A model generated the notes under the pieces. That model made no database searches. It was not told the DNA's origin and saw only the letters and a program-made list of their open reading frames with translations. A stretch of 64,000 nucleotides of DNA from Erythrobacteraceae bacterium WH01K (lineage in GTDB: Bacteria; Pseudomonadota; Alphaproteobacteria; Sphingomonadales; Sphingomonadaceae): positions 806,001 to 870,000 of the forward strand of contig CP115966.1 in assembly GCA_027941995.1 (NCBI GenBank), in the 5' to 3' direction. Shown piece by piece: positions 2,669 through 34,587 of the stretch. Position numbers and translations under genes: made by a program. Every line of letters starts with the position of its first letter. The stretch's first letter is position 1.

Positions 2669-2680
2669 GCCAACAGGGCG

Positions 2681-3667: not shown

Positions 3668-3676
3668 CGGATTGCC

Positions 3677-4849: not shown

Positions 4850-4878
4850 GATGCGTGGACCTTGAAGGGGAAAGTTCG

Positions 4879-5709: not shown

Positions 5710-6929
5710 TTCACTTTCTCCGACATTCGCTGCGGGGCAGGCTTGAACCGCGTTCCGATGCCGGAGGTGCGCTGCACCCCCTTGCTTGCCGGACGAGGGG
5801 TGCTGCCACCGGGATTGTTCGTGATATTGGTAATGCGGGTGCCGCTGCCGCCGTGGCTTATGCCCGGATCATTGGCGGGCATGAGCGGTGCGGCATGAGC
5901 AGGGGAGCCGGCGGCGATCGCCGTACGGCTTGCCAGTGCCTCGTGCGGGGTGCTGGCGACAGGGGTTCTGGGCGATCCGTCCGCCTGCCGCGTTACCTGC
6001 ACGGGCGGGGGAGCGGGGGCGGCCTGCGACTGCCCTTCCGATACATCCTGCACCAGTCCGAACACGCGCCAACCGGCCACCATCGTACCGGTGATCTTCA
6101 GCACCATGACCATCAGCGCGACATGGACCGCGCCGAGCATGAAGAAGGCCATGGCAGGGCGCGCCTCGATCTGGCCCGGCACGGCGGCCAGCGCGCCGAG
6201 GACGGGAACCGCCAGTTCCAGCATGATCGTGCCGGTCAGCACGGCGAACAGCGGGACGAGCGCCAGCATCACCGCGGCCTTCAGCCAGCCGGTGAACAGG
6301 CCGCGCGTGCCATTGAACAGCGCCATGACGACGAAGATCGGCCCCAACGCGACCAGTACGGCCAGCGCAATGCGCGCAGTCACCAGCACACCCACCGTGC
6401 CCAGCATGAACAGCATCGCGCCCAGCCACAGCATGCCCTCGGGCGAAAATGCGGAGACGTCTGCGGTTTCGCCCTGCGCCGCCTCGACCGCGCCGAAGAC
6501 GACATCGACCTTGCCCGCAAAGGTGGCCGTCGCCGAACCGCTGTCGCCGGTCAGGACGCCTGCCAGCCAGTCGGGCGCGCCGATGGTCAGGTTCCACACC
6601 ACGCTCTGATAGGCGACCCAGCTGGTCGCGAAGGTAAGCACCAGGCCGAGCGTGATCATGCGCGGCGTCAATGCGCGCACGCCCAAGGCGGATCGACCGG
6701 TCAGCAGGTTGATGGCGAAGAAGGCGACGTAGAGGGTCAGCAGGATCGTCAGGACGGTAATCAGCGCCCCGTCCGATCCGAACAGGCGGGCAAAGGCATC
6801 GCCCGTGACCTCGGCCGCAACGCAGTCGACGGCGCGCAGGGCAGAGGCTACGCCGCCCGCGGCCTCGTTCACCGCATACTGGCACTGTGCCGGATCGGCC
6901 GCGCCGGGGAAGGATGCGCCCGTGGTCAC
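5706..6929 (-). CDS. virB6: Type IV secretion inner-membrane protein VirB6
   Basis: This 407-residue polytopic protein starts with GTG at 6929, overlapping the virB4 stop (GTGA). A periplasmic N-terminus holds two cysteines (C17, C36). About six to seven hydrophobic segments lie between residues 55 and 300, including a conserved W/GxxD-like stretch near 190-215. The C-terminal 100 residues are low-complexity Pro/Ser/Thr/Gly-rich and cytoplasmic or periplasmic. The pattern and position between virB4 and virB9 identify VirB6/TrbL, the inner-membrane translocation platform. Its last codons overlap virB9 (ATGA). Confidence 0.9.
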   Translation of the reverse strand: MTTGASFPGAADPAQCQYAVNEAAGGVASALRAVDCVAAEVTGDAFARLFGSDGALITVLTILLTLYVAFFAINLLTGRSALGVRALTPRMITLGLVLTFATSWVAYQSVVWNLTIGAPDWLAGVLTGDSGSATATFAGKVDVVFGAVEAAQGETADVSAFSPEGMLWLGAMLFMLGTVGVLVTARIALAVLVALGPIFVVMALFNGTRGLFTGWLKAAVMLALVPLFAVLTGTIMLELAVPVLGALAAVPGQIEARPAMAFFMLGAVHVALMVMVLKITGTMVAGWRVFGLVQDVSEGQSQAAPAPPPVQVTRQADGSPRTPVASTPHEALASRTAIAAGSPAHAAPLMPANDPGISHGGSGTRITNITNNPGGSTPRPASKGVQRTSGIGTRFKPAPQRMSEKVK

Positions 6930-19960: not shown

Positions 19961-20599
19961 TCAGCAGGCGATGGCGTAATTGGGTGCAGGTTGCACCGCT
20001 GTGCCGAAAGCCGCGACTGGCAAGATGGCGGGCGCGGCAGACTGGTCGCATGAATCCAGTTCGCTGTTGCCGAGCGCCTTCCTCAAGACCTTGCGCGCAT
20101 AGTGCAGCCGGGTCTTGACCGTGCCGACCGGCACGCCGGTCGCATCGGCGATATCCTGCACCGACAATTCGTTGAAATAGGCGAGCGTGACGCATTCGCG
20201 ATGCGCCGGTGACAGGCTGCCCAAGGCGAAGGCGATGCGCGATGCCATGTCCCGGGCATGGGAACGGGCATCGGGCCGGGGGCCTGTATCGACGATTTCG
20301 GAAAAGCTTTCGGGCGGCAGGATGCTGACCCGGCGGCCTTCCCTGCGCAGCCGGTCGATGGCCTTGTTGCGCACGATCCGGCGGATCCAGCCCGCCGCCG
20401 CGCCGTGACCGGCATACCGGTCCGCATTCTGCCAGATATGCAGGAAGGCTTCGTCCACGGCATCTTCTGCCGCCGCCATGTCGCCCGCCAGGATTGCCTG
20501 CGCCTGTGCGACAAGGCCGCCCTTCATGGTGGAGTAAAGCTGTTCGAATGCGCTCTCGCTACCTTCGGCAATCTCCTGCAGGCAAATGCGGCAGTCCAT
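19961..20599 (-). CDS. ECF-family RNA polymerase sigma factor
   Basis: This 212-residue protein starts at ATG 20599 with AAGGGG 7 bases upstream; the frame is open to 20719 but without such a site. Region 2 spans about 18-88 (DAVDEAFLHIWQNADRYAG, WIRRIVRNKAIDRLRRE). Region 4 spans about 124-177 (LSPAHRECVTLAYFNELS, then the helix-turn-helix VQDIADATGVPVGTVKTRL). A 35-residue C-terminal tail with two Cys follows. It directs polymerase to a stress or signal regulon. No full anti-sigma gene is adjacent; a short anti-sigma-like ORF lies 6.7 kb away at 27255. It diverges from the winged-helix/TPR regulator. Confidence 0.92.
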   Translation of the reverse strand: MDCRICLQEIAEGSESAFEQLYSTMKGGLVAQAQAILAGDMAAAEDAVDEAFLHIWQNADRYAGHGAAAGWIRRIVRNKAIDRLRREGRRVSILPPESFSEIVDTGPRPDARSHARDMASRIAFALGSLSPAHRECVTLAYFNELSVQDIADATGVPVGTVKTRLHYARKVLRKALGNSELDSCDQSAAPAILPVAAFGTAVQPAPNYAIAC

Positions 20600-20878
20600 G
20601 GCGTTACCCCTTTTTCGCCATCCACGTAATCGGGTCCGTCGGGATGGTTGCCCCCGGCTCCGCATAGGCGTGGCTTGCGACGCTGCGAAACCGGTCCATC
20701 CCCGCTGATCACGAGACACTGGCTAGGGAGCACCTGCCCTGCCGGCGGGAAAGCAATGTGACTCCTGCGGGAAAAAAGCGTGAAATACGGGGAGAATGCG
20801 TTAGTCATGGACGCGATCGGGCCTGTGCAGGCCCATCGTAAGGGGGCGCGCAATTGGTGCGCATTGCAAGGGGGCGAG

Positions 20879-22612
20879 ATGACGCAGGACGGTATCTTCG
20901 CGCTCAGGTTGCTGGGGGTTTTCCGCCTCGACGGGCCGGATGGAAAGCGCATCGATATTCGCAGCAAGCGGGGTCAGGCGCTGGTCGCGATGCTCGCCAC
21001 CGCGCCGGGCGGCGAACGTTCGCGCGCATGGTTGCAGAACATGCTGTGGAACGACCGCGCACCCGAACAGGGGCGGGCCAGCCTGCGGCGCGAACTGTCG
21101 AACCTGCGCCCCCTCCTGAATGCCGATACCGAGCTGCTGGCGGTCAACAACCAGACCGCCGCGCTGGACCTCGCCCGGCTGTCGGTCGACGTGAACGCCC
21201 CTGTCGGCCCCGATGGCAAGCCGCCGTCCGGAGAATTTCTCGAAGGGCTGGATATCGCCGGGGAATCGGCGTTCGAGGACTGGCTGCGCGAGGAACGCCA
21301 GTCCCTGTCGGACCGCGCGGAAGCTCTCGCAAAGGACTACGCAGGCGGCTCGCCGGCGGCAGGCCATGCCATTGCGCCGATGCCTGCAGGCCCCGTGCCG
21401 ACGGCGGCACCGGAAGAAGCGATGGACGACAAGGGCGCGCTCGCCGTCCTGCGTTTCACCATTGCGCCGGAGGACGAGGAAGGGCGGATCATGGCCGACG
21501 GCCTCGCCGAAGACCTGATCGAGACCCTGTCGAACACGCGCTGGCTGCCGGTCATTGCGCGCTCCAGCAGCTTTGCCATCAGCGCGGGCGACGCCGAACC
21601 GCGCCGCGTCGCCGGAAGGCTCGGTGCACGATATCTGGTGGAGGGGCGTCTCGTCCGCCAGGGCGAGAAGGCGACATTGCGGATCGACCTGCTGGACGGC
21701 GAAACTGGTCTGACTCTCGGCAGCGAGAAGCACGAATGGAGCAGCGCGGCAGACCGACCGACAACCGACCGGATGATTGCCGACATCGCTGCCGCGCTGG
21801 GCATGGGGGTCGAACAGGCGGAGCAGCAGCGATCCTATCGCAAGGACGGCATGCAGCTGACTGCTGCCGACCTGATCTGGCGCGGGCGGTTCCACCTCAA
21901 TCGCCTGACCGATGGCGACAATGCGCAGGCACGTACCCTTTTCCTGCAGGCGATCGAGGAAGACCCGTCCTCGGTCGAGGCGCGCATCCAGCTGCTGTGG
22001 CTGAACATCCGCGAATTGTGGCTCAATCGCGGATCGGTCGAGGCGATCCGGCAGGCGCGCCGCGATGCGCAGATGGTGATCAAGGCCGATAGCGGCGATG
22101 CACGCGGCTACATGCTGGCCGGTATCGTCGAGCTGTGGCTGGGCAAGGTCATGCGGGCGGAGAGGCTGCTGACACAGGCGATCGGGATCAATCCCAGCCT
22201 GTCGGCGGCCCACGCGCAGCTTGGCGGCGTGCATTATTTCCAGAGCAAGTGGAGCCGGTCCATCGCGGCGCTGGAACGTGCCCGCAGGCTCAGCCCGACG
22301 GATCACGACCTCTTCTTCATCCACGGCCAGCTGGCCATGGCGCACCTGCTGTCCGGCGATTGCGAGCGCGCTGTCGAATGCGCGGAGGAATCGCTCGGCC
22401 TGCGCTCGGGCTACTGGTTCAGCCACATGGTCAAGGTCGTGGCCCTGTCGAACATGGACGAGATGGACCGGGCGCGGGAAGGCTTGCGCGACCTGCTGGA
22501 CGCCAAGCCGGGCTTCTCGCGCCGCTACATAGACTGGCTGCCTTTCGACGATAGCGGCCACCGCGAATTTCTGTGCGAGCATTTGAACCGGGCAGGGCTC
22601 GCACTCGACTGA
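20879..22612 (+). CDS. Winged-helix (SARP/BTAD-like) regulator with TPR repeats
   Basis: This 577-residue protein starts at ATG 20879, just after AAGGGGGCGAG; an earlier ATG at 20780 lacks such a site. Residues about 8-95 resemble the OmpR-type winged helix of SARP-like activators (LRLLGVFRLDGPDGK, ALVAMLATAPGGERSRAWL, LRRELSNLRPLL). Residues about 180-300 resemble the TolB/FlgO-like alpha/beta domain often found in adenylate-cyclase-like regulators (LAVLRFTIAPEDEE...LAEDLIETLS, VEGRL). From about 320 to 550 there are tandem TPR helices. No cyclase catalytic domain is present. It sits 44 bases upstream of the P450-peroxidase fusion on the same strand and is its most likely local regulator. 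Confidence 0.82.
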   Translation: MTQDGIFALRLLGVFRLDGPDGKRIDIRSKRGQALVAMLATAPGGERSRAWLQNMLWNDRAPEQGRASLRRELSNLRPLLNADTELLAVNNQTAALDLARLSVDVNAPVGPDGKPPSGEFLEGLDIAGESAFEDWLREERQSLSDRAEALAKDYAGGSPAAGHAIAPMPAGPVPTAAPEEAMDDKGALAVLRFTIAPEDEEGRIMADGLAEDLIETLSNTRWLPVIARSSSFAISAGDAEPRRVAGRLGARYLVEGRLVRQGEKATLRIDLLDGETGLTLGSEKHEWSSAADRPTTDRMIADIAAALGMGVEQAEQQRSYRKDGMQLTAADLIWRGRFHLNRLTDGDNAQARTLFLQAIEEDPSSVEARIQLLWLNIRELWLNRGSVEAIRQARRDAQMVIKADSGDARGYMLAGIVELWLGKVMRAERLLTQAIGINPSLSAAHAQLGGVHYFQSKWSRSIAALERARRLSPTDHDLFFIHGQLAMAHLLSGDCERAVECAEESLGLRSGYWFSHMVKVVALSNMDEMDRAREGLRDLLDAKPGFSRRYIDWLPFDDSGHREFLCEHLNRAGLALD

Positions 22613-22656: not shown

Positions 22657-25600
22657 ATGGCCAGGGCGAAATATTTCGAAGGCATCAGGAAAGCGCAGGA
22701 AGAGGACGCAGCCGGGGGTGATGGCGGGCCGCCTATCCCTTTCTCCATCGATGCGCTGCGCCCGGACAGCTGGCGCGCCCGGGTAACGGGCAGGCTGACG
22801 CAGGCGGCCATTCCCTACGTCTATGCCCTATCGCGGCAATACAGGCCGGTGCTGGACCTTGCCGGGCTGGTTCACGTGACCCGCGCCGAACAGGTCCGCG
22901 ACGTGCTGGCCCGCCCGCAGGACTTCATCGTTCCGTTCGAACCCGAAATGAAGGAGCTGGGCGGGGGATCGACTTTCCTGCTGGGGCTGGACGGGCAGGA
23001 TCACGACCGCCTGCATGCGATATTGACCCGCGTCCTGCTGCCGGGAGACGTCGCGCGCATCGGGGCCATGGCGGAGCAGTTTAGCGACGGCATCCTCGAC
23101 AATGCGCGGGGCGAAATCGACGTCATCGCCGACCTCCTGCGCCGCGTGCCGACCGAGATCTGCCTGCGCTATTTCGGGCTGAGCTGTCCCGACCCCGACC
23201 TGTTTGCCGACTGGACGCTGGCCATATCGGCCCTGCTGTTCGGGGATCCCTATGGCGATCCGGTGACGCGGCGGCTGGCGAAGCACGCGCAGGTCCGCCT
23301 GACGGCCGTCATCGAAGAAGCGATCGCGCGCCACCGGCAGGTCCTGTCCCATGGCAGCCCGCGACTGGAGGCGCGCACCACGCTGGTGGAGCGGTTCCTG
23401 CTGGTGCAGCGGGAGGATCCCTCGCTGACCGATGGCGACATCGGCGCCATGCTGCTGGGCCTTGCCGCAGGCTTCGTGCCGACGAATACATTGGCCGGGG
23501 CCAAGATGCTGGAGGAACTGCTGGACCGCCCGGAGGCGCTGGAGATGGCGCAGGCGGCAGCCCGGTCCGGGGATGCCGAAGCGATGCGACGGATCGTGCT
23601 GGAGGCAGGCCGCCTGAACCCTGCGCTCGCGCCGGGCCAGTGGCGCTATTGCCCGAAGGAGGCGACGTTGTCCGTCGATGGCAAGCCGCGTGTGATCCCC
23701 GCCGGTTCGACGCTGCTGGTATCCACCCAGTCAGCCATGCGCGACCCGCGCGAATGGGACCGCCCGAACGCGTTCCGGATCGACCGGGTCCGGGCCGACG
23801 GGTCGTACCAGGAACCGGACCTGATGTTCGGCATCGGCTCCCATCGCTGTCTCGGCGAACACCATGCCGTGGCCCAGATATCGGGCTGTTTCACCGCATT
23901 GTTCCGCCGTGACCGGGTCGCCCGGGCCCGCTGGTGCAGGGGGCGGGTGAAATATGCCGGGCCCTTCCCGCGCAACCTCGTCCTGACCTATTCTGCGCCG
24001 GACACGAAACAGTCCATGTTCCTGGTGATCGCGCCTGTCACCGACGGCGCATCGAAGGAACAGGTGGAGGAAACAATCGCAGCGCTCGGCCACCCGGCTC
24101 AGGCTGGGATACGCGCCGCGCTCGACCGGACGAACGTGGTTCATTTCGCATCCCTCGTTGCGCTCGAATCCGAACGCGGTCTCGACGTGGTGTTCGAACT
24201 GAGCTGCGACGGCGACATTCCCGGCGCGCTGGCAAGGATCGAGGAGGAGGCGGGTGACTTGCTGCACCCCGTCTTCGCCCATTGCGGCCTGCGCCATGAC
24301 GAGCGGCTGCGGATCTTCCTGGGCGCCCATGTCGTGACGCTGCATGGCAAGCTGTGGGGAGCGACGGGCCTCGATTTCAACGGACTGGGCGAATTCCCGG
24401 TCGAGCGGACTGCGCGGCAGGCGCGGTTCGCGGATTTCGCGGGCCGGACCTTGCGCGATTACGTCGCGACCGAGACCGCGCGGGGCAGCCATCCGACGCT
24501 GACCCTGAACCATTTGCGCCGCATCCTGCGGGGCGATCCTGTGCTGCGGGCAGAGGCGACCGATGCGCAGAAACAGCTGATGGACGAGGCGCAGCGCGAA
24601 GGGTGGGATGCCTTCCATCTCGGCACGGACCGGATGCGACTGCAATTGGCAAAATTCCGGCAGATAAAGGGATGGTGGGCGATCCTGTGGCGCTTTCTCG
24701 GCACGGGCGACGGGCTTTCCGTGTGGTTCCCCGTGCTGGCCGTCGTGCTACTGGCGACCGCCGTCATCCGCTCTGCGCTGGGCGAGGGGATTGCCCTGCC
24801 ATGGCTGGTGGCCCCGCTGCTGGGCATCATCGCAGGGCTGCTGGTGGTGGCGGCGATTGCCGGCCTGTTCGTCTGGCGTTTGCGTGTGCTGGAGACCTCC
24901 GAAGTCCCCAGCACCGAGCGTGCCTCGATGGACCACCTGAAGGCGCTGGCCGCAGCGGAGGATCACCCCGGCTACGCCCAGAACCACGTGCTGGCAGTCG
25001 GGCGGCTGAAAAAAGGGGCATTTCGCACCTTCCTCCACGCCTTGGCGCTGTGGGGCATCCGGATGATCATCACCCACGGCATCCGTCCGGGCTTCGTGTG
25101 GAACATGGGTACGATCCACTATGCCCGCTGGTGGCGCCTGCCGGGGACGCGGGTCGTCGCGTTCTATTCCAATTTCGATGGCAGCTGGGAAAACTACCTG
25201 GAAGATTTCATCGTCCGGGCGAGCGAGGGCCAGACCGCCGCTTGGAGCAATTGGGAAGGCTTCCCGAAATCGCGCCTGATGATGCTTGACGGGGCGCTCG
25301 ATTCCGATGCGTTCAAGCAATTCACCCGGACCGTCCAGCGGGCCGCACCGTTCTGGTATGCGCGCTTCCCGGAACTGACGTCCGACCAGATCCGCAATAA
25401 TGGGCAGATCCATGTGGGGGCCGCGCTGGGACGCACCGCGACCGAGGCGGAGGAATGGGTCCGCTGCTTCAGCTCCATGCCGCGCACCGCGAACATGGTC
25501 GAAACCGACGAGGTGCAGGCACTGGTCTTTCGCGGGATGAAGCGGCTTCCATACTCGGTCGCCCTGGTCGCGAAACTGCCCGGCGATCCGGTCAGTCTGG

Positions 25601-27258
25601 GCAATTGGCTGTGCTGGGTTCGCGGGCGGCCCATGCAGGTCGGCGCGGTGCAGGCCGGCGCTGGCGGGAACGCGGACGAAGTGCTGGAAGAACTGCTGAA
25701 GCACGAGGTCATCACCCCCGTCCCGCGTGCCGGAGGGCGGCGGACCGAATACGCCCTGGCGCATTCGCTCAGCATCACGTTCGGGGATCGCCCGCTGATG
25801 GGTTTCGATGCGTGGTCGGACAAGGCCCGAAAGGAAGAGGGCAAGGACAAGCGCAGCGATGCCGACAGGGCGATGGGGCAGGCGGTATTCCTCGGCCTGA
25901 CGGCGGTGGGCCTGGCGAAGTTCGATGCGCCGAACATGCCGGCCGGCTCTGCTTGGGACGGCCTGCCCGGTGCATTCCGGATGGGCATGGCAGCGCGGCA
26001 CCGGATCAATGGCGACCGCGGCGCGGATTCTCCGAAGCACTGGCGCTGGCATGACGATCCGTCCGGGGACGACCCCGCGGAGGCGACCCTGATGCTCTAT
26101 GCCGCCACGCCCGAGGCCCTGCAGCGCATGGTGACGATCCACGCCGGATTGCTGGAAAACCATGGCGGTTCGGTCCTCCACCAGACCGATTGCGCGCCCG
26201 TTTCCGACCATCCCGACCGCACGGATTTCGAGCATTTCGGTTTTCGCGACGGTATTTCGCAGCCGGTCATGCGGGGCACGACCCGCTCGGTCAGGAACGT
26301 GCCGGAGCGCGACATCGTGGAGCCGGGCGAGTTCGTCATCGGCTATCCCAACGATTCAGGCTACATGCCGGAAAGCCCGCATCTGCCCGCAGACGCCGAC
26401 ATTGCCTGCGCGCTGCCGGTGGTCATCGGCGACAATCTGTCGCGCTATACCGATTTCGGGGACGGCAGCCTCGCCAACGCGCCGCGCGATTTCGGGCGCA
26501 ATGGCACGTTCCTGGTCATCCGCGAACTGGCGCAGGACGTGGACGGGTTCGAGAAAGGTGCTGAAACCGCGGCCGGACAGCTTTCGGAAGGGGCGCTGGG
26601 CGATCTCTACAAGCTGGTCGGGCAGATGCCCGATGCCGAATGGGTGAAGGCCAAGATGATGGGCCGCTGGCCCGACGGACGCCCGCTGATCGGCAATCCG
26701 GTGCGCAGGGAGGGCGACCAGGTTTCGCCCGAGCGATGGGCGGAAAACGATTTCTCTTACGCGCTCGACGATCCGCAAGGCCTCGCCTGCCCCTTCGCCG
26801 CGCATATAAGGCGCACCAATCCCCGCGACAGCAAGCATCCGGACGACCCGCACGAACAGGCGATTTCCAACCGCCACCGCCTGCTGCGAAGGGGGCGGCC
26901 ATACACGCGTGCCGATGGCGAGAAGGGGCTGCTGTTCGCGTGCTTCTGCACCGATATCGAGCGGCAATTCGAATTCGTGCAGCAGCACTGGGCCGATGCG
27001 CCCGCCTTTCACGGGCTAGACAACGAACCCGATCCGATCATCGGGGCCGATCCGGTCGCGGTCCGGGACGGCGAGACGCGCGAGCGCGGGTTCACCATTC
27101 CGACGGCGGCAGGCCCGGTCCGGCTTGGCGGCCTGCGGAAATACGTGACGATGAAAGGCGGCGGCTATTTCTTCATGCCCAGCCGTTCGGCCCTGGGCTG
27201 GCTTGCCGACATATCCCTGAGGAAGGGCAACATCTTTCGCAGCGATCCCTCGCGATGA
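22657..27258 (+). CDS. Cytochrome P450 / membrane hairpin / DyP-type peroxidase fusion
   Basis: This is one continuous 1533-residue protein with two haem enzyme domains. Residues 1 to about 445 are a cytochrome P450: K-helix ExxR at E316-R319 (EAGRLNP) and haem-thiolate loop FGIGSHRCLGE at 391-401 with ligand Cys398. The I-helix reads AAGFVPTNT (270-278) and lacks the usual acid-Thr pair. Residues about 450-680 form an alpha/beta region of unknown family. Two helices at about 689-708 and 714-742 form a membrane hairpin. A further alpha/beta stretch (TIHYARWW near 818, NFDGSWENYLEDFI) precedes a DyP peroxidase domain from about 950. That domain has GFRDG at 1195-1199 with Asp1198, CPFAAHIRRTNPR with probable proximal His1383, and HRLLRRG with Arg1411/1412. 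Because the hairpin crosses twice, both haem domains should face the same side. Function unknown; see findings. Confidence 0.88.
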   Translation: MARAKYFEGIRKAQEEDAAGGDGGPPIPFSIDALRPDSWRARVTGRLTQAAIPYVYALSRQYRPVLDLAGLVHVTRAEQVRDVLARPQDFIVPFEPEMKELGGGSTFLLGLDGQDHDRLHAILTRVLLPGDVARIGAMAEQFSDGILDNARGEIDVIADLLRRVPTEICLRYFGLSCPDPDLFADWTLAISALLFGDPYGDPVTRRLAKHAQVRLTAVIEEAIARHRQVLSHGSPRLEARTTLVERFLLVQREDPSLTDGDIGAMLLGLAAGFVPTNTLAGAKMLEELLDRPEALEMAQAAARSGDAEAMRRIVLEAGRLNPALAPGQWRYCPKEATLSVDGKPRVIPAGSTLLVSTQSAMRDPREWDRPNAFRIDRVRADGSYQEPDLMFGIGSHRCLGEHHAVAQISGCFTALFRRDRVARARWCRGRVKYAGPFPRNLVLTYSAPDTKQSMFLVIAPVTDGASKEQVEETIAALGHPAQAGIRAALDRTNVVHFASLVALESERGLDVVFELSCDGDIPGALARIEEEAGDLLHPVFAHCGLRHDERLRIFLGAHVVTLHGKLWGATGLDFNGLGEFPVERTARQARFADFAGRTLRDYVATETARGSHPTLTLNHLRRILRGDPVLRAEATDAQKQLMDEAQREGWDAFHLGTDRMRLQLAKFRQIKGWWAILWRFLGTGDGLSVWFPVLAVVLLATAVIRSALGEGIALPWLVAPLLGIIAGLLVVAAIAGLFVWRLRVLETSEVPSTERASMDHLKALAAAEDHPGYAQNHVLAVGRLKKGAFRTFLHALALWGIRMIITHGIRPGFVWNMGTIHYARWWRLPGTRVVAFYSNFDGSWENYLEDFIVRASEGQTAAWSNWEGFPKSRLMMLDGALDSDAFKQFTRTVQRAAPFWYARFPELTSDQIRNNGQIHVGAALGRTATEAEEWVRCFSSMPRTANMVETDEVQALVFRGMKRLPYSVALVAKLPGDPVSLGNWLCWVRGRPMQVGAVQAGAGGNADEVLEELLKHEVITPVPRAGGRRTEYALAHSLSITFGDRPLMGFDAWSDKARKEEGKDKRSDADRAMGQAVFLGLTAVGLAKFDAPNMPAGSAWDGLPGAFRMGMAARHRINGDRGADSPKHWRWHDDPSGDDPAEATLMLYAATPEALQRMVTIHAGLLENHGGSVLHQTDCAPVSDHPDRTDFEHFGFRDGISQPVMRGTTRSVRNVPERDIVEPGEFVIGYPNDSGYMPESPHLPADADIACALPVVIGDNLSRYTDFGDGSLANAPRDFGRNGTFLVIRELAQDVDGFEKGAETAAGQLSEGALGDLYKLVGQMPDAEWVKAKMMGRWPDGRPLIGNPVRREGDQVSPERWAENDFSYALDDPQGLACPFAAHIRRTNPRDSKHPDDPHEQAISNRHRLLRRGRPYTRADGEKGLLFACFCTDIERQFEFVQQHWADAPAFHGLDNEPDPIIGADPVAVRDGETRERGFTIPTAAGPVRLGGLRKYVTMKGGGYFFMPSRSALGWLADISLRKGNIFRSDPSR

Positions 27259-27473
27259 GCGGCGGCGAAGCATCGGAGCGGCTGGCGGCCATGCTTCCCT
27301 TCTACGTCAACGGGACGCTGGATGCGGCCTCGCGGCGCGAGGTCGATGCGGCGCTCGAGGCCTCGCCCCGATTGCGCGCGCTGCTGGCGCAGGAACGGGA
27401 ACTGGCGGCCGCCGTACGGCGCGACACGGCTGGCCGGCTGGAGGAATGGGAGAAGCGCAGGAAGGACGATTGA
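27255..27473 (+). CDS. Short anti-sigma-factor-like protein
   Basis: This 72-residue protein has an ATG overlapping the stop of the P450-peroxidase fusion (ATGA). It begins with the pattern of the N-terminal anti-sigma domain (ERLAAMLPFYVNGTLDAASRREVDAAL, then ASPRLRALLAQER), but lacks the zinc-binding His/Cys residues and has no membrane helix. It may be a minimal anti-sigma protein, possibly for the ECF factor at 19961-20599, or a remnant of a longer one. Assignment rests on pattern only. Confidence 0.6.
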   Translation: MSGGEASERLAAMLPFYVNGTLDAASRREVDAALEASPRLRALLAQERELAAAVRRDTAGRLEEWEKRRKDD

Positions 27474-27616: not shown

Positions 27617-28306
27617 TCAGCCCAGCCGGCGGGCGATGCGCACGAACAGGGCAATCAGCGGCGGGACCAGGACAAGCGACAGCACGACCTTCGCGATGAC
27701 CTGTCCGATCAGCAGGTTGGTGATGTCGAACTCGCCATAGAAGGCGAGCGTCACGAAGATGACCGAATCGATCGCCTGGCTGAGCGCGGACGCGATGGCG
27801 CCGCGGATCATCAGGCCGGTGGTGGTGCCCTCGCCGCTCGTCTTGCCGCGCAGGCGGGAGAACAGCCAGACATTGAGCAGCAGCGATACCAGATAGGCCG
27901 CCGGACCCGCCGCCATGATGCGCGGGGTCTGCGACAATACCGTCTCGAACGCGGCAAGGTCGCTGGCGCGATATTCCAGCATTTCCGGCGAAGCGGGCAG
28001 CGACAGCACCAGGAAGATCAGGACCGCCGACACGGCCAGCGGCAGGAAACCCCACCACACCAGCCTGCGCGCGGTGGCATCCCCGTACACCTGCGCGATC
28101 GTGCTGGAGACGACGACCAGGATCAGGAAGGCGAAAATGCCTGCCTCCACCGCCAGGTTGGTGAAGGGCAGTTGCACCTGCTTGAACGCCAGGAACCCGG
28201 CCAGAACGGCCATCCCGCCATAAAGCAGGGACAGGACGAACAGGCCGCGGGGCATCGCATGCGGGGACGGGGTGCCCGAAGGTGCGGTGGTGAAGTCGGT
28301 ATCCAT
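27617..28306 (-). CDS. yhhQ: Queuosine precursor transporter (YhhQ/VUT family)
   Basis: This 229-residue membrane protein has about six hydrophobic segments. It carries the family's IAQVYGDATARRLVWWGF-type motif near residues 69-86 and the AIDSVIFVTLAFYG stretch near 177-190. These match the DUF165/COG1738 family, whose E. coli member YhhQ imports the queuosine precursor preQ0. The 12-residue polar N-terminus is variable. No preQ1 riboswitch pattern was seen in the 200-base upstream region, which is shared with nupC. Substrate assignment is by family. Confidence 0.85.
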   Translation of the reverse strand: MDTDFTTAPSGTPSPHAMPRGLFVLSLLYGGMAVLAGFLAFKQVQLPFTNLAVEAGIFAFLILVVVSSTIAQVYGDATARRLVWWGFLPLAVSAVLIFLVLSLPASPEMLEYRASDLAAFETVLSQTPRIMAAGPAAYLVSLLLNVWLFSRLRGKTSGEGTTTGLMIRGAIASALSQAIDSVIFVTLAFYGEFDITNLLIGQVIAKVVLSLVLVPPLIALFVRIARRLG

Positions 28307-28433
28307 GGACGCTGACTATGCAGCCTGCCGGGAAAAGGGAAGGGTGCCTGCGCTGTCTGTCCGCAAGACGTCTGACAAGCCGTGTGCGCAGGTTTGACTC
28401 GTCCGGACCGGTCGGCAATGGGCAAATGTGTGG

Positions 28434-28482
28434 ATTCGCGGGGCAAGCGCCCCCGCGAATGAGATGCGCGGCCGTCGGCCGC
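28434..28482 (+). other. Two strong hairpins in the nupC 5' leader
   Basis: The first is a 10-bp perfect stem ATTCGCGGGG (28434-28443) / CCCCGCGAAT (28451-28460) with a 7-base loop. It is followed at about 28467-28482 by a palindromic GCGGCCGTCGGCCGC element. Both precede the NupC start by 27 to 75 bases. They may form an mRNA leader structure or a bidirectional boundary. No known riboswitch is recognised. Confidence 0.5.
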
Positions 28483-28508
28483 GACCGACGACGGGGAACC
28501 TGCCGACA

Positions 28509-29852
28509 ATGCATCCGATCCTGACCAGCCTGTGCGGCATCATCGCGATCCTGCTGGTTGCCTTCCTGTTGTCCACGGGCAAGCGCCGCATTTCGCTCAG
28601 GGTCGTGGGCGCCGCCTTCGCGCTGCAGGCCATCACCGCGCTGCTGGTGCTAAGGACTCCGTTCGGGGTGCAGGCGATCCAAGGGCTGTCCAACGGGGTC
28701 ATCGCCCTGCTGGATTATTCCAAGGTGGGGATCGAGGCGGTGTTCGGCCCGATGGATGCCAACCCGTTCACCAATACCTTCGTCATTGCAGCCCTGCCGG
28801 TCATCATCTTCTTCGCCGCGCTGGTTTCGATCCTCTATCACTGGGGCATCATGCAGCGGCTGGTGCGCTGGGTCGGCGGGGCGATCGGCTGGATTACCGG
28901 TATCAGCAAGGTCGAGGCGCTGGGCAGCGCCGCCAATATCTTCGTTGGCCAGTCGGAAAGCCCGCTGGTTGTGCGCCCCTATCTCGCGTCCCTGTCGCCC
29001 AGTCGCCTGTTCACGCTGATGAGCGTGGGCATGGCCGGCGTCGCAGGCACGATCCTGGCGGCCTATGCCAGCTTCATCGGGGAAGAGGCGGTGCCGTTCC
29101 TGCTGGCAGCGGCCTTCATGTCCGCGCCGGGCGGTATCCTGATGGCGAAGATCATCATGCCCGACGACGAGAGCGACCTGGCGCGCGGCGCGGCGGAACT
29201 GGCCGGGCTGGAAGAAGAGGATATTCACCTGCCCAAGTCGCGCATCAGCGCGGAAGGTCCGGGCGCGCTGGTCGAAGGCGGCGTCCCGCACGAGGTGGAA
29301 ATCGCCCAGACATTCGAGGAAGGGCACGTCCCTGCCAACGTGATCGAGGCTGCGGCACAGGGCACGCAGACCGGGGTGAAGCTGGCCGTTGCGGTCGGCG
29401 CGATGGTGCTGACCTTCGTGGCGCTGGTGGCGCTGGCCAATGGGGTGCTGGGCGGAATCGGCGGCCTGTTCGGCTATCCCGAACTCTCGTTCCAGCAGCT
29501 GCTCGGCTTCATCTTCGCCCCCGTCATGTTCCTGATCGGCGTGCCGTGGGAAGATGCAGGTGTCGCGGGCGGATTGTTCGGCACGAAGATCGTCCTCAAC
29601 GAATTCGTCGCCTTCATCGAACTTGGCGCTCTGGGGGACGGTACGTTCAGCCAGCGCACGACCGCCATCGTCACTTTCGCGCTGTGCGGCTTTGCCAATT
29701 TCAGCTCGATCGCGATCCAGATGGCGGTGACGGGCGGCCTTGCCCCGAACCAGCGCCCCGTGATCGCCCGGCTCGGCCTGCGGGCGCTTGCGGCCGGCAG
29801 TCTCGCCAACCTGATGAGCGCGGCGCTGGCGGGCCTCTTCCTGCCCTATTAA
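28509..29852 (+). CDS. nupC: NupC-family concentrative nucleoside transporter
   Basis: This 447-residue protein starts at ATG 28509. It shows the CNT family order: an N-terminal three-helix Nuc_trans N-domain (1-75), the gate region with LGSAANIFVGQSESPLVVRPY (about 135-155), a central part with a long cytoplasmic acidic loop (about 220-285), and a C-terminal domain with GTKIVLNEFVAF and CGFANFSSIAIQ. It imports nucleosides with protons or sodium across the inner membrane. The acidic loop between helices is longer than in E. coli NupC. It diverges from yhhQ. Confidence 0.93.
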   Translation: MHPILTSLCGIIAILLVAFLLSTGKRRISLRVVGAAFALQAITALLVLRTPFGVQAIQGLSNGVIALLDYSKVGIEAVFGPMDANPFTNTFVIAALPVIIFFAALVSILYHWGIMQRLVRWVGGAIGWITGISKVEALGSAANIFVGQSESPLVVRPYLASLSPSRLFTLMSVGMAGVAGTILAAYASFIGEEAVPFLLAAAFMSAPGGILMAKIIMPDDESDLARGAAELAGLEEEDIHLPKSRISAEGPGALVEGGVPHEVEIAQTFEEGHVPANVIEAAAQGTQTGVKLAVAVGAMVLTFVALVALANGVLGGIGGLFGYPELSFQQLLGFIFAPVMFLIGVPWEDAGVAGGLFGTKIVLNEFVAFIELGALGDGTFSQRTTAIVTFALCGFANFSSIAIQMAVTGGLAPNQRPVIARLGLRALAAGSLANLMSAALAGLFLPY

Positions 29853-29883
29853 GTCGCGGCGAGCCGTATTAAGGGGATCGGCC

Positions 29884-30870
29884 ATGACCGAATCCCGCAC
29901 CGCAGACACCGCCCGGGCAGGCGCCATCGCCTCCGTTTCCCTCGACCGTCCTCTGGACGACATTGCCGACGAATTGGGACGCAGCTTCGCCGAATTCGGC
30001 TTCGGCGTCATCCGCGACCACGGGATCGACGCCGGACTGATCGCGCGGGCGGAAGAGATGTCGAAGGCGTTCTTCGCGTTGCCGGATGCGACCAAGCGCG
30101 CCTACAAGATCGAGGGCGGCGGCGGTGCGCGCGGCTACACCCCTTTCGGGACCGAGAAAGCCAAGGATGCGAAGGTCCATGACCTGAAGGAATTCTGGCA
30201 TGTCGGGCGCGACCTGCCCGAAGGGCACGCGCTGTCCGATTTCATGGCGCCCAATATCTGGCCGTCGGAGGTCGATGGTTTCCGCGAGACGTTCGAAGAC
30301 CTCTACGCCGCATTCGAGATGGCCGGCGCGCGCGTGCTGAAAGCCATCGCCCTGCATCTGGGGCTGGAGCGGGATTTCTTCGAGCCGACGATTGCGGACG
30401 GAAATTCGGTGATGCGCCTGCTGCATTACCCGCCGATGGACAGCGCCGATGCCGAAGGCGCCATCCGCGCCGCCGCGCATGGCGACATCAACACCATTAC
30501 CCTGCTGCTGGGGGCGGAGGAAGCCGGGCTGGAATTGCTGACGAAGCAGGGCGAGTGGCTGGCGGTCGATCCCCCGGCGGGCGCGCTGGTCGTCAATATC
30601 GGCGACATGCTGGAACGCCTGACTGCCGGACGCCTGCGTTCCACCACCCACCGCGTGGTCAATCCCCGCGGGGAAGCGGCGGGCCGGGCGCGCTATTCCA
30701 TGCCCTTCTTCCTGCATTTCCGCCCGGACTACCTGATCGACCCGGCCAGCCTTGCTGCGGCTAGCTATTCCGAGTCGGGCGCTGGAATTGCAGCAGATTC
30801 CGCCAGCTACACGCCCATCACGGCCCACGATTTCCTGATGCAGCGCCTGCGAGAGATAAATCTCGCCTGA
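29884..30870 (+). CDS. 2-oxoglutarate/Fe(II) oxygenase, isopenicillin-N-synthase-like
   Basis: This 328-residue cytoplasmic enzyme has an N-terminal DIOX_N region (SFAEFGFGVIRDHGID, about 33-48) and the GYTPFG loop. Its jelly-roll has the iron triad His199-x-Asp201 (AAHGDINTITLLL) and His256 (STTHRVVNP), plus the 2-oxoglutarate-binding RxS at Arg270/Ser272 (RYSMPFF). These are the hallmarks of the isopenicillin N synthase family. The substrate is unknown; there is no biosynthetic cluster around it. Spacing of 31 bases after nupC suggests co-transcription. Confidence 0.9.
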   Translation: MTESRTADTARAGAIASVSLDRPLDDIADELGRSFAEFGFGVIRDHGIDAGLIARAEEMSKAFFALPDATKRAYKIEGGGGARGYTPFGTEKAKDAKVHDLKEFWHVGRDLPEGHALSDFMAPNIWPSEVDGFRETFEDLYAAFEMAGARVLKAIALHLGLERDFFEPTIADGNSVMRLLHYPPMDSADAEGAIRAAAHGDINTITLLLGAEEAGLELLTKQGEWLAVDPPAGALVVNIGDMLERLTAGRLRSTTHRVVNPRGEAAGRARYSMPFFLHFRPDYLIDPASLAAASYSESGAGIAADSASYTPITAHDFLMQRLREINLA

Positions 30871-31146
30871 CGAAAGCGCCGCTTTCGCGGGCAAAAAGGC
30901 AGTTTCGCGGTTTTTCCCGGGATGTTGCAATGCAGCAACAGGCGATTTCCGCTACGGAAAGCAAAGCTTTGCGGCCATGCTCGCGATAAGCTGTGACTGC
31001 GCTGTCGCACTGTAATATTGCCGCAACAATCAGGCGCGCTAGGGGGCGGCGAGCCGCGTGCAAGGGATCGTGCGCCGCCCGCAATCGAAATTCTTCGACC
31101 CACACATTTTGACCACCAAGCGAACATTCCGAGAAGGAACGTCCCC
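30871..31146 (+). promoter_or_regulatory. Intergenic region upstream of the Oar-like receptor
   Basis: This 276-base non-coding region contains a 7-bp hairpin CGAAAGC/GCTTTCG (30871-30887) at the end of the oxygenase gene, a 12-base palindrome GCAAAGCTTTGC (30961-30972), and a TAATAT stretch (31013-31018) that could be a -10 box. An AAGGA ribosome site precedes the ATG at 31147. The promoter for the receptor is presumably here. Confidence 0.4.
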
Positions 31147-34100
31147 ATGAAGATCAAATATCTCCTCGCTGCCAGCGTCGCCACGATCGGCACCGCTGTC
31201 GCCATGCCTGCCCCGCTTGCGGCGCAGCAGATTACCTCCGGCATCGAAGGTACCGTTTCCGGCGCCGACGGCGTTCCGCTTTCGGGTGCGACCGTGGTCG
31301 TCACTGATACGCGTACCGGCCAGGTCAGCACGCTGCGCACCGACACCGACGGTTCGTTCCGCGCCGGTTCGCTCGTCCCGGGCGGCCCCTACACCGTGAC
31401 CGTCACGGCGGCCGGCTTCGAAGGCCAGTCGGTCGAAGACCAGTTCATCACGATTTCGGGCAACACGTCCTACGATTTCGAACTGACCGCTGCATCTGCC
31501 GCAAACAATGCCGATGTCATCGTCGTCACCGCGCAGCGCGCCGGCGTGCAGCAGCTTGCCGTCGGACCGGGCACGGCCTTCGGCGAAGCCACGCTGGAAG
31601 CATTCCCGTCGCTGACCCGCGACGTTCGCGACATCATCCGTCTCGACCCGCGCGTCAGCCTCGACCGCGCCAACGAAGTCGACCGTATCTCGTGCCTCGG
31701 CGGCAACGACCGTTCGAACACCTTCACCGTCGACGGCATCGTCCAGGCCGACGTCTTCGGCCTCAACGGCACGCCGTTCGCAGCGCGTAACGCCCTGCCG
31801 CTGCCGTTCGACGTGATCCGCGAAACCTCGGTCGAGTTCGCACCGTTCGACGTCGAATATTCCGACTTCACCGGCTGTCTCGTCAACGTCGTGACCAAGT
31901 CCGGCCAGAACGAATTCCACGGCTCGGCCTTCTTCACCTTCCGCAATGACGACCTGCGCGGCGACTCGCTGGAAGGCGTCGACAACATCGCTTCGCCGTT
32001 CGAGGAAAAGCGCTGGGGCGCCACGCTTGGCGGCCCGATCGTCAAGGACCGCCTGTTCTTCTACGCCGGTTACGAGGAAACCGATCTTGGCAACGCCAAC
32101 GAATTCGGTCCCTTCGGCGGCGGCTTCGCCAACGAAGCGGCCTTCGTGACGCAGGCCCAGTTCGACCGTTTCGCGCAGATCGCGCGTGACGTGTACGGCC
32201 AGGATGTCGGCGGCTACCCGGTTACCCTGCCGGAATCGAGCGTGCGCTATTTCGGCCGCGTCGATGCCTACATCACCGACGACCACCGCCTCGAAGGCAC
32301 GTATCAGCGCCTGGAAGAAACCAATGTCGAATCCGATACCGGCGACCAGGAGCTGACGGGCCTCAACTCGTTCGAGGACGAAGGCACGGTCTCCGACTAC
32401 TACTCCGCACGTCTCTACTCCGACTGGTCCGACACGATCTCGACCGAGATCCGCGTCAGCCGTTCGGAAGTAGCAGACGTCCAGGGCCCGGTGGGGTTCG
32501 GTGAAGCGCAGTCGGACAACCCGACCGTGCGCCTGTCGGTTCTCGTTCCCAACGAAACCAGCGGCCTGATCCCGGGGGGCCAGAACGGCCTGCTCAGCAC
32601 CGGTCCCGGCATCTTCCGTTCGGCCAACGCGCTCAACACGAAGGTCGACCAGGCCAAGGTCCAGATGAATATCGACGGCGGCGATCACCTGTTCAAGATC
32701 GGCGCAGAGGTGAACGACCTGGAAGTCTTCAACCTGTTTGCCATCAACGCGACCGGTACGCTGTTCTTCAGCAGCCTGGACGATTTCGCGGCTGGCCGCG
32801 TTGCTCCGGGTGCCTTCTCCAGCGTGTTCGGCGGCGGCGCCGATGCGGTTGCCGGCGGCGCTCTTGGCGGCGGCGACATCTCGGCCACGCCGAGCGGCGA
32901 CATCAACGAAGCGGCGGCATCTTTCGGCCGCACCATCTGGTCGTTCTACGCCCAGGACGAATGGCAGGCGACCAGCCACCTTTCGATCACGGCCGGCCTT
33001 CGTGCCCAGCTGTATGACGGCGACGCCCCGCGTCCCAACCCGCAGTTCGCTGCCCGTTACGGCTTCACCAACGCCAACGCGTTCAGCAAGCTCGACACCG
33101 TGCTGCTGCCGCGCCTGTCGGCGACCTACGAATTCGACAATGACGGTTTCTTCTCGAACAGCCGCTTCACCGCGGGTTACGGCAAGTTCTCCGGCGGCGA
33201 CCCGATCGTGTACTTCTCCAACGCGTTCTCCAACAACGGTTTCTCGACCGGCCAGGAAGACACGTTCGGTCCGTGCGACGCGATCACCAATACCGATGGT
33301 TCGATCACCGTTGTCGAGAACGGCCAGTTCACCGGCTTCCCGGAATGCGCCCGTATCGCGGCGTCTGCCGAAGCGGCTGCCGGCCTGTCGGACACCCAGT
33401 CGACCGATCCGGACTTCGACGTGCCCACCGTGTCGCGCTTCAACGCAAGCTTCACGACCGATTTCGGCACGCCGACCGGCTTCTTCAGCGGCTGGCGCCT
33501 GAACCTCGACTACATCTACTCGCGGTTCCACGACACGCTGAACTTCGTCGACCTGGCGCAGACCCCGGACATTCGCACCAATGGCGGTTTCACCGTCGAC
33601 GGTCGTCCGATCTACGCTGCAATCGACCCGACGGCCGCTGGCTGCGGTGCGACCCTGGTCGGTTCGGGCGGCACCCCGCCGGTGTACAACAACGTCACGC
33701 CTGCCTGTTTCGCGACCGGCCGGGACGACGAGATCCAGCTGACAAACGGCCCGTCCTATGACAGCCACGTCGCCTCGATCAGCCTTGCGAAGAACTTCAA
33801 TGGCGGCATCATCACCGATGGCGGCAATGTGAACTTCCGTCTCGGCTACGCCTTCACCGACTCCAACAACAACCGGAATGTCGGTTCGTCGACTGCAACC
33901 TCGTCCTACGACGTGACGGCAGCCTTCGACCGCCAGAACCCGGCGATCTCGACGTCGAACTACGAGACGCGGCACAATTTCTCCGCCGCCCTCAACCTGC
34001 GCGAGCAGTTCATCGACGGCTATGACACCTCGCTGGGCATCTTCTTCCGTGCGTATGAAGGCAGGCCCTACAGCCTGACCTTCGACGGTGGCGGCGTGTT

Positions 34101-34587
34101 CAACGACAGCTCGTCGGGCAGCGACAACGCGGTTCTCTACATCCCGACCGGTGTGAACGACCCGAACGTGTCGCCCCTGTCGGATGCCGGTGCCGTGGCC
34201 GATCTGCTCAACTACCTGAACACCAGCGAAGTTGGTGAGCAGTGCAGCTTCACCGCCGGTCAGTCGATCGCCCGTAATTCCTGCCGCAACGACTGGAACT
34301 ACGACCTCGACCTGCGCCTGAGCCAGGAAGTTCCGTTCATCGGTTCCTTCACCGGGATCGCCAACGACCGGCTCGAGCTGTTCGCGGACTTCGACAACTT
34401 CCTGAACTTCATCGACGACGGGGCGAACATCATCGCTTCGCGCGGTGACTTCGTGGACCTCGTCGATGGCGGCGTGGACGACCAGGGCCGGTACATCATC
34501 TCGGGCTTCAACCCGGACGATACCGAATTCGTCGGCACGACCAGCTCGATCTGGCGCATCCAGGTCGGCGTTCGCTACGAGTTCTGA
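31147..34587 (+). CDS. Large Oar-like TonB-dependent receptor
   Basis: This 1146-residue protein starts at ATG 31147. It has a signal peptide (1-27, ...PAPLAAQ), a carboxypeptidase-regulatory-like domain (about 30-115: GIEGTVSGADGVPLSGATV, GSFRAGSLVPGGPYTVTV), a TonB-box-like ADVIVVTAQR, then a plug with the motif CLGGNDRSNTFTVDG, FDVIRETSVEFAPFDVEYS and VNVVTKSGQNEFHGSAFF. This plug pattern is that of OmpA-related Oar/cell-adhesion TonB receptors. The barrel ends in IQVGVRYEF. Codon use is very regular, with strongly preferred GGC/GTC/ACC-type codons, suggesting high expression. It is a single gene followed by a strong hairpin. The substrate is unknown; relatives import peptides or proteins or act in adhesion. 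Confidence 0.9.
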   Translation: MKIKYLLAASVATIGTAVAMPAPLAAQQITSGIEGTVSGADGVPLSGATVVVTDTRTGQVSTLRTDTDGSFRAGSLVPGGPYTVTVTAAGFEGQSVEDQFITISGNTSYDFELTAASAANNADVIVVTAQRAGVQQLAVGPGTAFGEATLEAFPSLTRDVRDIIRLDPRVSLDRANEVDRISCLGGNDRSNTFTVDGIVQADVFGLNGTPFAARNALPLPFDVIRETSVEFAPFDVEYSDFTGCLVNVVTKSGQNEFHGSAFFTFRNDDLRGDSLEGVDNIASPFEEKRWGATLGGPIVKDRLFFYAGYEETDLGNANEFGPFGGGFANEAAFVTQAQFDRFAQIARDVYGQDVGGYPVTLPESSVRYFGRVDAYITDDHRLEGTYQRLEETNVESDTGDQELTGLNSFEDEGTVSDYYSARLYSDWSDTISTEIRVSRSEVADVQGPVGFGEAQSDNPTVRLSVLVPNETSGLIPGGQNGLLSTGPGIFRSANALNTKVDQAKVQMNIDGGDHLFKIGAEVNDLEVFNLFAINATGTLFFSSLDDFAAGRVAPGAFSSVFGGGADAVAGGALGGGDISATPSGDINEAAASFGRTIWSFYAQDEWQATSHLSITAGLRAQLYDGDAPRPNPQFAARYGFTNANAFSKLDTVLLPRLSATYEFDNDGFFSNSRFTAGYGKFSGGDPIVYFSNAFSNNGFSTGQEDTFGPCDAITNTDGSITVVENGQFTGFPECARIAASAEAAAGLSDTQSTDPDFDVPTVSRFNASFTTDFGTPTGFFSGWRLNLDYIYSRFHDTLNFVDLAQTPDIRTNGGFTVDGRPIYAAIDPTAAGCGATLVGSGGTPPVYNNVTPACFATGRDDEIQLTNGPSYDSHVASISLAKNFNGGIITDGGNVNFRLGYAFTDSNNNRNVGSSTATSSYDVTAAFDRQNPAISTSNYETRHNFSAALNLREQFIDGYDTSLGIFFRAYEGRPYSLTFDGGGVFNDSSSGSDNAVLYIPTGVNDPNVSPLSDAGAVADLLNYLNTSEVGEQCSFTAGQSIARNSCRNDWNYDLDLRLSQEVPFIGSFTGIANDRLELFADFDNFLNFIDDGANIIASRGDFVDLVDGGVDDQGRYIISGFNPDDTEFVGTTSSIWRIQVGVRYEF

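Follow-up and report, generated by a model that had tools for sequence, protein, structure and literature searches.

A predicted membrane-tethered fusion of a cytochrome P450 and a DyP-type peroxidase: a candidate bacterial two-haem enzyme for fatty-acyl hydroperoxides

The window analyzed here, a 64,000-nucleotide stretch of the genome of Erythrobacteraceae bacterium WH01K (contig CP115966.1, positions 806,001 to 870,000), contains a gene whose product is predicted to join a cytochrome P450 and a DyP-type peroxidase in one polypeptide, with both haem sites intact. The domain order is P450-B-hairpin-A-DyP, in which the hairpin is a predicted membrane anchor and A and B are two related domains. 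We propose, with a probability of roughly one in two, that the protein is a membrane-tethered two-haem enzyme most likely processing fatty-acyl hydroperoxides, where the substrate class, the order of the steps, and the products are what we infer. The gene and its parts are as follows (window positions).

22657..27258, + strand: P450-B-hairpin-A-DyP fusion gene (one open frame; homologues found)
22657..24000, + strand: P450 domain, residues 1-448 (PF00067, model, and motif counts; I-helix GFVPTN 272-277, EXXR 316-319, Cys398)
24007..24390, + strand: B half of the barrel, residues 451-578 (alignment and model; His496, Asp518-Gly519)
24706..24900, + strand: membrane hairpin, helices 684-708 and 714-748 (model, hydropathy)
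24979..25365, + strand: A half of the barrel, residues 775-903 (alignment and model; IHYARW, FYSNFDGSW)
25483..27228, + strand: DyP domain as delimited by the family profile, residues 943-1524 (profile match, PF20628, 8re3; Asp1198, His1383, Arg1411)

The frame is open from an ATG to a single terminal stop and encodes 1533 amino acids (aa), as the initial annotation of the stretch had stated. A GTG farther upstream, at 22573, would give 1561 aa, and the ATG at 22657 is supported because relatives begin at the equivalent spot (MARAKYF, versus MAKAKYY in genome G118). The 2.9-Mb window genome has no second copy of the fusion, its sole other match being a weak one to another P450. Public databases contain such fusion sequences under a domain-based or hypothetical annotation; in the literature searched, mostly without subscription journals and without bioRxiv preprints, we found no description of a P450-DyP fusion or of a DyP role in oxylipin formation.

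In a scan of genome contigs for sequences resembling A, 327 stretches matched, and the best 80 were retained with names. In 59 of these 80, a single frame without stops encodes P450, B, A, and DyP; the set of 80 is biased toward fusions because the query was built mainly from fused members, and five of its contigs duplicate loci already in our other samples. The 59 include Bradyrhizobium, Rhodopseudomonas, Reyranella, Phenylobacterium, Roseobacter, and Sphingomonadales, and a homologous fusion, SARO_RS19865 (98% coverage), is carried by plasmid pNL2 of Novosphingobium aromaticivorans DSM 12444, where it lies downstream of acyl-CoA dehydrogenase and MaoC genes. A sequencing accident is thereby excluded, and the frameshift or pair of separate genes that the initial annotation had named as its own refutation is contradicted by relatives with the same one-frame architecture. 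The protein is not unique to this genome: the P450-DyP pairing recurs in many proteobacteria, either fused or as adjacent genes. An assembly join or a dead, decaying fusion, for which nothing speaks but the unusual architecture, thus has practically no chance of being correct in the face of this recurrence, the plasmid gene, and the conserved haem residues.

The P450 domain matches PF00067 over residues 205-418 (52.5 bits; Pfam cut-off, 22.8) and carries E316xxR319 and, at the position first reported, a haem-loop cysteine, Cys398, within FGIGSHRCLG. Its model (pLDDT, 91.1) has an unbroken I-helix at 259-290, and the EXXR motif, the Cys loop, and the fold together place it in the cytochrome P450 superfamily. 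The Cys and the EXXR Arg are kept in all 89 aligned P450s of this family and the EXXR Glu in 88. The acid-alcohol motif of the I-helix is kept in 4 of the 89 distinct sequences versus 17 of 18 other P450s of related genomes (40 matches, reduced to 30 loci and, past a filter, to 18). The window I-helix reads GFVPTN and lacks the acid-alcohol pair expected of a conventional O2-activating monooxygenase; Pro occupies window position 275 in 84 of the 89. CYP74 and CYP152 are hydroperoxide-using P450s that are likewise without that pair. Structurally, the best match of the model is P450BioI with fatty-acyl carrier protein (3ejd; Z, 37.2), the next rows being tied or nearly so, and other neighbors include CYP109 enzymes; structures of CYP74 or CYP152 type are not among the 50 matches listed, which excludes nothing.

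The motif loss has two points against it as support for our proposal: the motif residue replaced by Pro differs between aligners, and the acid is missing from the aligned sequence of the monooxygenase EryK as well. The loss is thus no more than suggestive and not decisive. The EryK case, together with the fold near P450BioI and CYP109, would suit a P450 monooxygenase of the conventional kind that draws its electrons from an unlinked ferredoxin, the DyP only clearing H2O2 from uncoupling. We regard this as improbable, given that the motif is lost in 85 of the 89 family members and in 1 of the 18 controls and that catalase-related proteins replace the P450 in other loci; moreover, no redox-partner gene was noticed among the neighbors viewed, although no systematic search was made.

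At the other end of the protein, the DyP C-terminal domain PF20628 is matched by residues 1404-1447 (29.2 bits; cut-off, 20), and TIGR01413 matches with an E value of 2.5e-25 at 89.5 bits, which is below its curated 100.5. The signature is that reported initially (GFRDG at 1195-1199, His1383, and RRG at 1411-1413); the GxxDG motif, proximal His, and distal Arg place the domain in the DyP superfamily and are held in common with DyP-type peroxidases of solved structure (8re3, the nearest, at E 4.6e-39; 2d3q; and DyP2, 4g2c). His1383 and Arg1411 are each kept in 124 of 125 aligned DyPs and Asp1198 in 123, with Glu in the other two. Unlike those known DyPs, this one is embedded in a 1533-aa membrane fusion with a P450 and a barrel, and those of some relatives stand in an operon with them.

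The middle of the protein had been described as a hairpin of two membrane helices (about 689-742) joining the P450 to the DyP. The helices stand, since those of the AlphaFold2 model agree with them; the hairpin as a plain P450-DyP linker was rejected, as it lies between the overlooked B and A domains, which flank it and pair into one barrel. In alignment with relatives, DG follows an H(F/Y)A(R/S) motif in both A and B, which a profile comparison identifies as paralogues (98.4% probability; E, 1.1e-14). Residues 444-975 were modeled with AlphaFold2 (pLDDT, 84.6; pTM, 0.82; model residue 1 is residue 444); in the model, a helical linker and the hairpin separate two ferredoxin-like halves, and B and A are predicted with confidence to fold into one dimeric α+β barrel. 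Structural alignment with VIA-align covers B and A together as one such barrel, with matches to WhiE-ORFI (9lmn; Z, 12.0; 225 residues at 4.7 Å; model residues 4-461) and AbxO (9ltx; Z, 10.6). The likeness is a statement about fold only, because Foldseek alone gave no match at E ≤ 0.001. The fold is thus common to these ABM/SchA-like proteins and to B plus A, with no sequence match between them, and neither Pfam, NCBIfam, PHROGs, nor PDB returned a significant sequence match for A or B; unlike known barrels, the halves are split by a membrane hairpin or encoded as separate genes. A and B would accordingly represent a two-part barrel family without a Pfam entry. In one locus (L106), a single DyP adjoins three tandem A-type copies, possibly a homo-oligomeric version of the barrel. 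No signal peptide was seen by eye in the window protein, and the hairpin together with this absence suggests that both haem domains lie on the same, probably cytoplasmic, side.

The relatives place the same parts in several arrangements. Within the order, matches at E ≤ 1e-10 occur in 27 of 196 genomes, with near-complete fusion homologues in five of them (35.6-67.5% identity); other genomes of the order have the P450 and DyP as separate neighboring genes. Four loci (L042, L043, L045, and L052) have four adjacent genes for P450, A (about 217 aa), B (about 191 aa), and DyP; in L044 and L046 the order is A, B, DyP, P450, with the L046 DyP split over two frames; and in L041 and L047 a fused B-A gene is followed by DyP and P450. 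The opposite fusion, A-DyP-P450, occurs in L038 of genome G121, four further loci (L110, L268, L273, and L274) look alike, and L102 is DyP-P450. The C-terminal P450 of the P450-last fusions is very divergent (E about 1e-3), the match of L102 being stronger. The initial annotation had contrasted the peroxidase family and the domain order with those of the fungal Ppo enzymes: the difference in family holds, but the order is not constant.

In a DyP tree of 97 rows, the 18 P450-first fusions group with split forms in a starred clade of 27 rows, and four of the five P450-last rows fall in another starred clade of 7, which L102 joins weakly. Holding all fusions as one group was rejected (p-AU, 3.6e-7; 31-row subset), and in that subset the P450-first fusions themselves require two changes. 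The tree thus indicates that the P450-DyP fusion arose at least twice, in opposite orders. One record titled Candidatus Kuenenia stuttgartiensis (L193, on the same contig as L104) holds B-A-DyP and P450 genes of alphaproteobacterial type; its title is probably wrong, because the identical 16,759-base contig is G456, which is placed in the class of the window genome.

Domain A provided a handle for a wider census. Its profile matched in 12 of 385 genomes of the class, 27 of 398 of the phylum, and 53 of 397 of the family, with the window genome counted each time. Two rounds of fetching gave 69 regions (34 plus 35). Of the 59 places in the family search, 35 were fetched, 13 were already covered or were the window itself, 10 had frames longer than 1400 aa, and one (G1057:C1) was omitted; for G000, G071, and G047, the phylum search contributed no newly fetched region. 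P450 fusions are therefore under-counted in the 69, because the 10 long frames are probably fused. A DyP is present in 67 of the 69 regions, the remaining two stopping at a contig edge. The second haem partner is this P450 in 33 regions, a catalase-related protein in 15, and both in none, and on a tree of 74 rows there are five changes between the two partner states. The gene content of these regions points to a recurrent bacterial module composed of a DyP, the A/B barrel, and one of two alternative second haem enzymes, this P450 or a catalase-related protein like the catalase-related allene oxide synthases (cAOS). The latter group is the nearest to the alternative partner, whose best profile matches are 3e4w (5e-9) and the coral allene oxide synthase 1u5u (1.3e-8). 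The proximal R360xxxY364 is kept in all nine catalase-related proteins compared; the distal His is kept in five, with Asn in three and another residue in one, and PF00199 exceeds its cut-off in one of four members scanned. In L129 the catalase-related protein is itself fused to the DyP, and L051, outside the 69 regions, has a catalase-family neighbor. Two DyP-A loci (L121 and L103) have neither a P450 nor a catalase-related neighbor, so that other partners may exist; L121 has a 335-aa protein between A and DyP.

The neighbors of some relatives suggest that the module processes oxidized fatty acids. A patatin-like phospholipase is found in seven loci (L042, L043, L045, and L052 of one genus, L126 and L127 of another, and L100), and FadL adjoins L126 and L127. 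L129 (8e-57; 5775-8795, 1007 aa) and L050 (1e-24; 2133-5603, 1157 aa, with N-terminal TPR matches) encode haem proteins that, among solved structures, come closest to plant fatty-acid α-dioxygenases, and L246 has a homologue. An oleate hydratase above its NCBIfam cut-off adjoins L112, one genome has homologues of it in both L262 and L263, and GMC oxidoreductases adjoin four catalase-type loci. In a hand-picked census of 98 of 180 neighbors, which omitted mostly regulators, catalase-related proteins, and neighbors of fused loci, patatin was the commonest of the 25 families listed (eight by Pfam, seven traceable to loci); the background of 74 patatin matches in 23 genomes is a rough yardstick only. 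In the window genome, two patatins lie elsewhere and one partial PF03098 match exceeds its cut-off 1.4 Mb away; a lipoxygenase search gave no match there, but it had no working positive control, so absence is not shown.

On the reading that the fusion processes fatty-acyl hydroperoxides, the hairpin and the barrel would keep both haem domains on one membrane face, the side being inferred. One haem, more likely that of the DyP with H2O2, would make or activate an oxidized acyl intermediate, and the P450, which has no O2-activating motif, would, with no need for NAD(P)H and presumably independently of electron partners, rearrange it or cleave its O-O bond. Alternatively, the DyP may act on a hydroperoxide or supply an oxidized acyl radical. 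The barrel could be an acyl-binding scaffold, a cofactor-free oxygenase, or a third haem site. A more specific version, which we hold only tentatively, is that of a bacterial oxylipin system in which the membrane-tethered DyP and the new two-part α+β barrel form a fatty-acid (hydro)peroxide synthase or activator, whose product is passed to the fused P450 acting as a hydroperoxide isomerase or, in sister loci, to the cAOS-like protein.

Several observations weigh against these proposals. By the thresholds used, 21 of the 69 regions have neither a P450 nor a catalase-related partner, although this class includes weak catalase matches (L270 and L272) and weak P450 matches (L268 and L273). The mutual exclusion of the two partners has a Fisher's exact p of 1e-5 without kinship correction and is not significant when kinship is corrected for (sign test on independent pairs of the tree, p 0.125-0.25), so it is a pattern and not proof. 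Probes for patatin, α-dioxygenase-like protein, oleate hydratase, GMC oxidoreductase, and FadL matched none of the 80 named, mostly fused, loci, although unlike lipid genes would be missed because the probes were seeds from cousin loci. No lipid gene was found among the window neighbors scanned, the α-dioxygenase and hydratase genes are confined to catalase-type loci, and the lipid cases overlap in kinship (four patatin loci in one genus, L126 and L127 in another, and L262 and L263 in one genome). The DyP, finally, need not be the hydroperoxide maker, because it persists where an α-dioxygenase is present.

The lipid assignment must also be weighed against a specialized metabolism in which a small molecule, aromatic or polyketide, would pass through the barrel, the P450, and the DyP one after another. 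The best structural matches of the barrel are polyketide ABM/SchA-like and decarboxylase proteins, a tyrosinase stands beside the DyP-A locus L103, which counts against the lipid reading, and the regulator beside the fusion, described below, is SARP-like. A common barrel fold, however, tells little of a substrate, and the families listed for the 98 neighbors include no polyketide or peptide synthetase, patatin being the commonest among them. We consider a non-lipid substrate unlikely.

Comparison with known systems sharpens the proposal. The fungal DOX-P450 enzymes (Ppo; linoleate diol, epoxy alcohol, and allene oxide synthases) likewise hold a haem oxidase and a P450 in one polypeptide. Their P450 partners are described as self-sufficient, and the I-helix motif of fungal 9-AOS domains reportedly includes a Pro, as (V/A)PxT and TPxG (PMC13049297). 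Their first haem domain, in contrast, is an animal-type peroxidase, PF03098, for which the window fusion gave no match at E up to 1; their order is DOX-P450 without an A/B barrel; and their activity is established. The coral AOS-LOX and HPL-LOX fusions (PMC5617202) place a two-step hydroperoxide logic in one protein to which the window fusion can be likened, with the DyP and barrel standing in place of their lipoxygenase. By analogy, then, the window protein would work like the fungal and coral fusions and is a member of neither, having no PF03098 domain, another peroxidase, and another order. The suggestion in the initial annotation of a bacterial analogue of Ppo draws support from the two intact haem sites, the hairpin, the motif loss, and the lipid or hydroperoxide genes beside several cousins, and it receives no lipid signal from the window's own neighbors.

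DyP peroxidases are best known for oxidizing dyes and lignin, and their natural roles are debated. The repeated independent linkage of one DyP group with a P450 devoid of the O2-activating motif, the alternation with a catalase-related protein, and the lipid genes in some loci offer a concrete, testable lipid-oxidation role for these DyPs. If it is correct, bacteria would have built a two-haem enzyme of the oxylipin type, and its components would have no kinship with the fungal and coral ones; if the oxylipin version also holds, the pair would be another independent combination of hydroperoxide maker and haem isomerase, distinct from DOX-P450, LOX-cAOS, and LOX/CYP74. SARO_RS19865, annotated by domain only ("Dyp-type peroxidase domain-containing protein") and residing in a named strain, is testable at once.

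The genes flanking the fusion in the window are as follows.

20780..22612, + strand: SARP-like TPR regulator, directly upstream of the fusion (TPR matches; clusters with its counterparts in relatives)
19961..20719, - strand: ECF-type sigma factor, divergent (Sigma70 r2 and r4, ECF; also in several close relatives)
27255..27473, + strand: zf-HC2-like (anti-sigma-like) gene, 72 aa, overlapping the fusion stop (PF13490, 24.1 bits; cut-off, 22.2)
27617..34587, mixed strands: right flank of vitamin transporter (-), nucleoside transporter (+), 2-oxoglutarate (2OG) oxygenase (+), and outer-membrane protein (+), common to genome G163

The same regulator cluster lies directly upstream on the same strand in 52 of the 80 named loci, and the homologue of the window regulator beside the N. 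aromaticivorans fusion is annotated as a "SARP family transcriptional regulator". SARP-like regulators are often tied to specialized metabolism. The ECF sigma factor cluster is near the fusion in 8 of the 80. In G118, G182, and G071, the gene at the position of the zf-HC2-like gene encodes 229-249 aa, and a subtilase gene comes next; because the version in relatives is longer and accompanied by this protease, the window seems to retain a zf-HC2 stump and to have lost the protease. An ECF sigma factor and a zf-HC2-like gene adjoining a peroxidase that is paired with a hydroperoxide-type haem partner, catalase-related in some loci, would also fit detoxification, in which lipid peroxides and H2O2 are destroyed at the membrane in a stress response: the DyP would reduce the peroxide, the P450 or catalase-related partner would dispose of lipid hydroperoxides, and no signal molecule would arise. 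The sigma factor, however, accompanies few of the loci compared with the SARP-like regulator, and the oleate hydratase and α-dioxygenase neighbors look synthetic; we consider detoxification unlikely, though at about one chance in five it stands a little ahead of a non-lipid substrate.

The right flank matches that of L050 in G163 in four genes of the same order and strands (65-73% identity), and the site beside it in G163 holds α-dioxygenase-like, catalase-related, B-A, and DyP genes. Judged by this flank, the same chromosomal address is occupied by the P450 fusion in the window genome and by the α-dioxygenase-like/catalase-related/B-A/DyP set in G163; as a point against the proposed function, the G163 DyP shares only 28% identity with the window DyP. 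Farther upstream, a phytase-family protein (PF02333; 18839-19909) is encoded directly after a TonB-receptor-like gene and upstream of the sigma factor.

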